Below are positions 51,659-51,901 of a stretch of DNA of 64,000 bases, in pieces. The stretch comes from Maridesulfovibrio hydrothermalis AM13 = DSM 14728 (GTDB lineage Bacteria > Desulfobacterota > Desulfovibrionia > Desulfovibrionales > Desulfovibrionaceae), in assembly GCF_000331025.1 (NCBI RefSeq), contig NC_020055.1:284370-348369 (forward strand). Reading direction: 5' to 3'. Made by a program: the position numbers and the translations under genes. Below the pieces are notes generated by a model that saw only the letters and a list, made by a program, of their open reading frames with translations, did not search any database and was not told the DNA's origin. Position 1 is the first letter of the stretch. Every line of letters starts with the position of its first letter.

Positions 51659-51901
51659 ATGAACGACAAAAAAACAGTTGATGTACGCAATAAATGCTGA
51701 GGAGTAGGACTGGAGGTAGGTTGGTATCTCCGTTTTGCAAAGACTGATGAAGTTATAGCTCTTGTAGATAAAGGGACAGTCGCTCAGTTGTATAACCAGC
51801 TTGAGATTCTACCTGACTGGAACCTTGTAACCTCTGATGAAGACGGACACATAAAAGCTGTCTTCAATAGAATCAACCCTGTTTACAGCAAGAAAGATTA
51901 A
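51659..51901 (+). CDS. TusA-like selenoprotein (UGA read as selenocysteine)
   Basis: 80 residues from the ATG at 51659 (SD GGGAGG) to TAA at 51901, with an in-frame TGA as codon 14 (51698-51700) directly after a Cys codon. Coding continues beyond it at protein-like quality and ends four bases before the next gene. The pattern VDVRNKC-U-GVGLEVG...DEVIALVDKGTV recalls TusA/SirA-like sulfur carriers, in which the motif is normally CP. A hairpin at 51712-51731 begins 11 bases after the UGA with loop GGTTGG, as expected of a bacterial SECIS. It is probably a redox or sulfur/selenium carrier acting with the flavin reductase downstream. Standard gene callers would miss it. Confidence 0.75.
51712..51731 (+). 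promoter_or_regulatory. candidate bacterial SECIS hairpin
   Basis: Seven base pairs (GGAGGTA with TATCTCC, one G-T) close a six-base GGTTGG loop. The hairpin starts 11 bases after the UGA, the distance used by SelB in E. coli fdhF, and the loop has the GGU feature of bacterial SECIS elements. Confidence 0.65.

Follow-up and report, generated by a model that had tools for sequence, protein, structure and literature searches.

TusU, a predicted selenoprotein family with a predicted TusA-like fold in the Desulfovibrionales

Analysis of a 64,000-nucleotide stretch of the Maridesulfovibrio hydrothermalis AM13 = DSM 14728 genome, referred to here as the window, revealed a gene of 80 codons (positions 51659 to 51901, + strand) that contains an in-frame UGA and that, judging from its sequence, almost certainly encodes a selenocysteine (Sec)-containing protein. 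We coined the label TusU for this gene. We infer that its product, which is predicted to fold like TusA, is probably a redox protein that depends on Sec and acts on thiols or sulfur.

Results

The TusU gene and its local signals

As read directly from the DNA, the TusU frame starts with ATG at 51659 and ends with the stop codon TAA at 51899 to 51901. Its single in-frame UGA is codon 14 (51698 to 51700), located immediately 3' of a TGC codon (Cys13), and translation with UGA read as U gives a protein of 80 residues that begins with MNDKKTVDVRNKC-U-GVGLEVGWYLRF... and in full reads MNDKKTVDVRNKCUGVGLEVGWYLRFAKTDEVIALVDKGTVAQLYNQLEILPDWNLVTSDEDGHIKAVFNRINPVYSKKD. The ATG is preceded at a distance of 6 nt by a Shine-Dalgarno-like GGGAGG (51647 to 51652, + strand). 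A bSECIS-like hairpin, GGAGGUA-GGUUGG-UAUCUCC (51712 to 51731, + strand), follows 11 nt after the UGA; its stem is formed by positions 51712 to 51718 and 51725 to 51731, and its apical loop, GGUUGG, lies 18 nt past the UGA. An earlier note on this DNA had reported a frame of 80 codons in which one UGA follows a Cys codon, together with a good ribosome site and, at this distance, a hairpin, and all three descriptions, including the coordinates of the frame, proved to be right. A second hairpin with 15 pairs and a T-rich tail, resembling an intrinsic terminator (51494 to 51527, + strand), lies between an upstream metallo-beta-lactamase (MBL)-fold hydrolase gene and TusU, so that TusU may have a separate transcript in the window's genome. 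This hairpin is a consensus match only, and consensus matching yielded 6 terminator-like sites in the region versus 4.1 in shuffled sequences. The window also contains a SAM riboswitch aptamer (48919 to 49021, + strand; 72 bits).

The hairpin behind the UGA

The bSECIS limits given in the part of PMC13188914 used here are a loop of 3 to 9 nt, a stem of 4 to 16 bp, a G in the first two loop positions, a spacing of 16 to 37 nt and a minimum free energy (MFE) of -7.5 or lower. The TusU hairpin lies within every one of these limits, with its 6-nt loop GGUUGG and leading G, its 7-bp stem, its 18-nt spacing and its energy. The 40 nt past the UGA fold with -15.9 kcal/mol (z -3.4), and 1 of 200 shuffles was as good; for 28 nt the energy was -9.4 kcal/mol. 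A search of window positions 51600 to 51950 with Rfam returned no SECIS match.

The conservation of this element was analyzed in 65 rows (59 distinct), which correspond to 48 loci and 17 nonidentical short loci. The 48 loci consist of the window and 47 of 49 regions, selected by hand rather than randomly so as to cover genera; the two regions left out, L139 and L140, hold Cys paralogues, and the short loci that were omitted were duplicates and those unrecognized by the filter. All rows were picked for TGA and thus provide no independent test of its conservation. In the 7-bp stem, 91.5% of the cells were paired and 17 cells had both sides changed, and neither value was reached in any of 500 shuffles. 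Stem pair 19-30 occurred as GC in 27 rows, as GU in 17 and as AU in 14. Counted by pair, 2 had both sides changed and 6 pair types occurred, values that do not exceed the shuffles, as 104 and 338 of the 500, respectively, reached them, and the innermost pair was unpaired in 19 of the 59 distinct rows. The SECIS prediction that the earlier note had proposed as a check was hence borne out by a hairpin that covaries and agrees with the published limits.

The codons that overlap the hairpin are strongly constrained at synonymous positions. Synonymous divergence (pS) was 0.24 in the SECIS codons (+1 to +13) as compared to 0.75 in the codons after them. Leu+10 is encoded by CTC in 59 of 65 members, whereas CTC accounts for 52 of 378 Leu codons elsewhere in those members. 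Similarly, Val+6 is GTA in 36 of 47 members versus 38 of 416 codons elsewhere, and Gly+7 is GGT in 41 of 54 versus 27 of 254.

Selenocysteine machinery and coding constraint past the UGA

The earlier note had made its reading dependent on selA, selB and selC, and the window's genome indeed contains SelA, SelB and a tRNA-Sec. The tRNA-Sec scored 83.3 bits, which is over the cut-off, and SelA, SelB and SelD are all over their model cut-offs. The SelD gene (G000:C2:575466-576386) carries an in-frame TGA of its own, so that SelD itself is probably Sec-containing. Across the relatives, the TusU family was present in 58 of the 90 genomes with a tRNA-Sec above 70 bits and in none of the 8 genomes without one (p=0.0005); limiting the analysis to genomes that are at least 90% complete gave a p value of 0.009. 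The 70-bit threshold is our own, as the Rfam cut-off of 47 bits was passed in 93 of 98 genomes and is passed also by other tRNAs. Taken together, UGA codon 14 bears every mark of a Sec codon directed by the hairpin behind it, and it is nearly certain that TusU is a selenoprotein.

A hairpin close behind a short frame that has a good ribosome site would also be expected of an attenuator, in which case the UGA would be a true stop, a 13-codon leader peptide and a regulatory hairpin would control the flavin reductase operon, and the rest would be untranslated. This reading is at odds with the protein-level constraint past the UGA: pN/pS was 0.29 past the SECIS region in 15 same-genus TusU members, and none of the 65 members has an in-frame stop within 50 codons after the UGA. 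Moreover, TusU occurs away from the reductase gene in 7 of the 48 loci, the family is absent from the 8 relatives without a strong tRNA-Sec, and Cys paralogues, described below, read straight through. We thus consider a leader peptide highly improbable and rejected this reading.

Spread of the family and conservation of the UGA

A homology search identified TusU relatives in 58 of 98 close genomes. TGA was present in 58 of the 59 matches, the exception being a more distant Cys paralogue in a genome that also bears the TGA form. The TGA-bearing family occurs in 31 of the 57 genera among these genomes, which refutes a pseudogene or a sequencing error at the UGA; nothing beyond the stop codon itself speaks for such an origin, and its probability is negligible given these independent genomes. 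In an alignment (A1) of the best 30 of the 59 matches from the 98 relative genomes, Cys13, Sec14 and Gly15 are invariant.

The A1 profile matched 168 of the 348 genomes of the window's order, including a few genomes with weak Cys-paralogue matches. For a few of the 168 genomes (e.g., G639 and G692), the Cys family is by far the better match, so that the count of genomes with the Sec form is somewhat lower. TGA was found in every TusU row among the matches listed for this search, down to an E value of about 1e-15. Of the 40 genomes that the 98-genome search left unmatched, two (G067 and G079) do match by profile; neither belongs to the 20 in which, as described below, the MBL-flavoprotein pair was located without TusU. 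When the longer loci were read with the profile, with TGA treated as Cys, 48 of 50 had TGA at the Sec column and the other two were Cys paralogues. The search for homologues with Cys or UGA at codon 14 that the earlier note had suggested therefore returned UGA in 58 of 59 and in 48 of 50 cases, with Cys in paralogues.

Of 395 genomes sampled from the phylum, 7 had matches, of which 6 belong to the window's own family and 1 is a marginal match of 18 residues. As far as sampled within this phylum, the TusU family thus appears to be confined to the window's order. Viral contigs searched with the TusU protein gave 12 pattern matches, none of which is related, and a DNA pattern spanning the UGA and the SECIS element gave none. 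A scan of genome contigs for the Cys-Cys pattern provided 8 stretches, of which a 20-residue match in Subtercola was the sole one confirmed; its translation had no further similarity, and it was dismissed as a chance match.

A sister family with Cys in place of Sec

The two TGA-free matches led to a Cys sister family, which is present in the window's own genome as well (L170; G000:C2:3502409-3502612, L170:4874-5125, - strand). Its motif is, with some variation, D-L-R-x-V-[TCS]-C-G-L-V-P-A-I. Profile comparison of the Sec and Cys families resulted in homology probabilities of 98.8% and 98.4% over 76 columns, and the conserved Cys of the sister family fell on the Sec column. The two families are alike in the order of their predicted secondary structure elements (pLDDT 77 for the sister) and differ in that the sister family has another gene neighborhood, an LDLLDY-type C-terminal tail and no Sec. 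None of five sister proteins tested matched Pfam or NCBIfam.

In a tree of 94 Sec, Cys and TusA rows (80 columns, with many forks unresolved), the 49 Sec rows formed one clade (100/99), which is surrounded by Cys rows if TusA is taken as outside. The window is counted twice among the Sec rows, and TusA is represented by 12 of the sequences that were collected. From the position of the Sec clade within the Cys rows, a single gain of Sec is probable, and none of the sampled members had reverted to Cys. In 8 of 20 selected loci, the Cys sister gene is located 3' of a gene resembling mnmE, in several of these behind yidC- and jag-like genes; the three gene names are presumed from the sequences. 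The Cys sister is possibly an uncatalogued tRNA-thiolation or sulfur-relay protein.

Predicted fold and relation to TusA

The predicted structure of TusU (pLDDT 88) has the order beta-alpha-beta-alpha-beta-beta. Its best structural matches were YeeD within YeeE-YeeD (Z 10.3), SirA-like 3hz7 (Z 10.2) and TusA (Z 8.6), followed by Alba (Z 8.5) and Smr (Z 8.2). Foldseek with the same model found nothing at an E value of 0.001 or lower and placed SpoVS and Alba above TusA. For the Cys sister model, the same TusA-family entries were on top (TusA, 8.2 to 8.5), tied with Smr (8.1). These models predict for TusU a fold of the TusA/SirA/YeeD type, in which Sec would be placed at the start of helix 1, where the reactive Cys sits.

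In the model superposition, the alignment start points imply that Sec14 falls on Cys11 of 3hz7 and on Cys19 of TusA. Cys13 of the Cys sister likewise falls on Cys11 of 3hz7; in TusA, the start point implies residue 18 and not Cys19, unless there is a gap in between. An ungapped alignment of TusU and TusA at D-x-R puts Sec on the catalytic Cys, the Cys of TusU one residue before it, and Gly in the place of Pro. There is thus a high likelihood that Sec occupies the nucleophile position of TusA. The earlier note had considered a CU motif to stand in place of the CP of TusA; the adjacent Cys-Sec pair is real, whereas the register has to be revised, as it is Sec and not Cys that lies on the catalytic Cys, with Gly replacing Pro.

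The same note had called the sequence on both sides of the UGA TusA-like, which holds for the predicted fold and not for membership in the sequence family. The Pfam TusA model (PF01206), which does detect such domains in 57 of 58 relatives, had no match at E values up to 10 in 30 TusU members, and the window protein had no Pfam match at all at E up to 10. Sec is followed by Gly in 60 of the 65 members, by His and by Arg in 2 each and by Ala in 1, and since none has a Pro at this position, there is no CPxP motif. The sequence similarity to TusA is weak by profile: hhalign gave probabilities of 8% for the Sec family and 19% for the Cys family. The joint Sec and Cys profile scored 21.1 against TusA, as compared to 20.7 for the best of 30 column shuffles, and its probability of 15.8% was below that of the best shuffle (18.3%). 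A comparison of TusU with the single sequence of Escherichia coli TusA gave no match. Because TusU is neither recognized by the Pfam model nor carries CPxP, we rejected its membership in TusA (PF01206). By its predicted fold and nucleophile position, TusU may work like TusA or YeeD, without belonging to PF01206 by score or motif. A separate observation is a weak TusA-domain match with an in-frame TGA at G002:C36:182310-182492 (60-aa frame, below the Pfam cut-off), which could be another Sec form or a chance match.

Gene neighborhood

Directly downstream of TusU lies its conserved partner, an FMN_red-family reductase gene (51906 to 52511, + strand) whose product contains C49-x2-C52-x2-C55-x7-C63. 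These four Cys columns were invariant in 21 of 21 aligned reductases, of which 20 fit the pattern CxxCxxCx(3-10)C. This pattern is that of iron-sulfur flavoproteins, and we take the reductase to be iron-sulfur-flavoprotein-like. The reductase gene is found directly 3' of TusU in 41 of the 48 loci and is not a neighbor in the other 7; the pairing with a flavin reductase that the earlier note had pointed out is hence conserved in most of these chosen loci.

The conserved upstream neighbor is the gene for the MBL-fold hydrolase (50841 to 51467, + strand), which is GloB-like with 85 bits, under the model cut-off of 201. It is located at most 2.6 kb upstream in 38 of 48 loci and within 250 nt in 34. 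A gene for a nitroreductase-family protein (50323 to 50841, + strand) is present in 31 of 48 loci and one for a ComF-like phosphoribosyltransferase (52890 to 53636, + strand) in 40 of 48. Five loci of the window's genus (L099 to L102 and the window) have a response-regulator receiver protein gene (52504 to 52890, + strand) between the reductase and ComF-like genes. We also noted that a 1,021-aa radical SAM, methyltransferase and DUF5714 protein (53712 to 56777, + strand) is encoded 3' of the ComF-like gene, in the same place in 4 loci including the window, and that in L107 to L109 (G058, G071 and G063) an extra gene of 358 to 381 aa is inserted between the MBL gene and TusU.

The MBL-flavoprotein pair occurs without TusU in 20 of the 40 relatives left unmatched by the 98-genome search. 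In 5 further relatives, TusU is located elsewhere while the pair stays together. The gaps within the pair range from 26 to 221 nt, and these 25 gap distances were picked by reading coordinates. Consequently, neither partner strictly needs TusU.

Discussion

Comparison with known proteins

TusU shares with TusA/SirA proteins (PF01206; E. coli TusA and Desulfitobacterium DSY4693, 3hz7) a length of about 80 aa, the order of the predicted fold, the predicted location of the nucleophile just before helix 1 and an Asp six residues before the nucleophile. It differs from TusA by Sec in the place of Cys19, by a Cys at the preceding residue and by the lack of CPxP. In TusA, Cys19 is the sulfur acceptor from IscS, as stated in the part of PMC2854127 used here. 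The best structural match, YeeD/TsuB, is like TusU a single domain, and TusU differs from it in having Sec for Cys, no CPxP and no YeeE among the named conserved neighbor clusters. According to the sections of PMC11073785 drawn on here, YeeD/TsuB is the TusA-family, thiosulfate-decomposing partner of YeeE that makes redox use of its nucleophile by an electron route called unknown, its Cys17 is the center of thiosulfate decomposition, and CPxP is conserved in the TusA family.

YedF (TIGR03527) resembles TusU in having a TusA-type domain and in occurring in a selenium-using organism, with one copy in the window's genome. It has about 200 residues, a second domain, presumably DsrE-like, and CP, whereas TusU has one domain of 80 residues and U-G. 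The YedF model matched none of 30 TusU members. YedF, which passes the NCBIfam YedF model, is the only PF01206 match at E 0.001 in the window's genome, and a single-domain TusA was not found there at this threshold.

Proposed function and competing explanations

Our best guess, put forward tentatively, is a reductive sulfane-sulfur role with the flavoprotein as the reductant of TusU. As a selenolate of low pKa where helix 1 begins, Sec14 would attack sulfane sulfur in the form of a persulfide, polysulfide or thiosulfonate. Cys13 would then resolve the Sec14 adduct as a vicinal selenenylsulfide, and sulfide would be released. NAD(P)H electrons would reach TusU through the adjacent reductase, which we take to be iron-sulfur-flavoprotein-like, and the MBL hydrolase may act on a related thiol substrate. 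In short, TusU would represent a Sec-based, reductive version of the TusA/YeeD sulfur-handling protein.

The suggestion of the earlier note that the pair forms a redox or selenium carrier system is plausible. Sec14 could, as in TusA, bind sulfur or selenium as a selenosulfide or perselenide and pass it to SelD, SelU or a thiolation enzyme, which would make TusU a carrier and not a reductase. The TusA-like fold and nucleophile position agree with this idea, as do the lack of a detected single-domain TusA beside YedF in the window's genome and the location of the Cys sister after the presumed MnmE-like gene in 8 of 20 loci, which hints at S/Se modification of tRNA U34. Nevertheless, in 41 of 48 loci, those conserved neighbors that can be named encode redox proteins and hydrolases, sel, isc, mnm and dsr genes are absent from the named neighbor clusters, and a carrier that relied on Sec to transport selenium would itself consume selenium. 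Overall, we regard such a role as doubtful. A related form, in which the vicinal Cys-Sec of a TusA-type carrier would bind selenium or sulfane sulfur, receive electrons from the flavoprotein and deliver selenide or sulfide, e.g., for selenophosphate synthesis or tRNA U34 modification, seems unlikely. If true, a selenoprotein with Sec in every member examined would itself serve selenium or sulfur trafficking.

The presence of nitroreductase genes in 31 of 48 loci and of the flavoprotein gene in 41 of 48, as well as the downstream radical SAM/methyltransferase/DUF5714 protein in the window's genus, could also be accommodated by a detoxification reductase. TusU would then be a subunit acting with the nitroreductase, the MBL hydrolase and the flavoprotein against peroxide and oxidative stress or against toxic oxyanions and related compounds (arsenic, selenite or nitro compounds). 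Against this proposal, there are genomes with the MBL and flavoprotein genes in which TusU is missing from the pair, and the TusA-type fold is not known to be used for peroxide reduction. In our judgment, it is quite improbable.

A probable new selenoprotein family

Adjacent Cys-Sec pairs like that of TusU are present in the CU selenoproteins Csac_0668/CopZ form 2, SaoL, HgcA, SaoC, MbdU and KCU-star, each of which has another domain model in Table 1 of PMC13188914. This table, considered in its entirety (119 selenoprotein families), has no TusA/SirA entry. None of the NCBIfam selenoprotein models matched the 30 TusU members. Searches of these members against Pfam and NCBIfam as a whole gave scattered, chance-level matches in 1 to 3 members, with best E values of 0.021 (NADH_oxidored, 3 of 30) and 0.13. 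In PHROGs, 5 families matched, each in 1 or 2 of the 30 members (best E 0.02), and a profile search of PDB sequences retrieved 4 sequences (best E 0.079). Among the titles and openings of abstracts found in the literature, most of it outside subscription journals, none describes a TusA-like selenoprotein. The part of PMC12013277 used here reports a screen of Salidesulfovibrio onnuriiensis IOR2 that detected 10 known selenoprotein genes and no new one, and it states that its own method may miss selenoproteins without Cys homologues. As far as these sources go, TusU is a new selenoprotein family of a TusA-like kind, the families of Haft and Tolstoy 2025 and of Haft and Gwadz 2023 having been compared via Table 1 of PMC13188914 and NCBIfam only.

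These data thus describe a widespread selenoprotein family, with profile matches in nearly half of the 348 genomes of its order, for which neither the family table nor the model libraries examined have an entry. Annotators can now call the TusU gene rather than skip it. The occurrence of Sec in every member examined indicates that the reaction may demand selenium, and the conserved flavoprotein and hydrolase neighbors offer a direct route for testing persulfide or selenium handling in these sulfide-dwelling bacteria.
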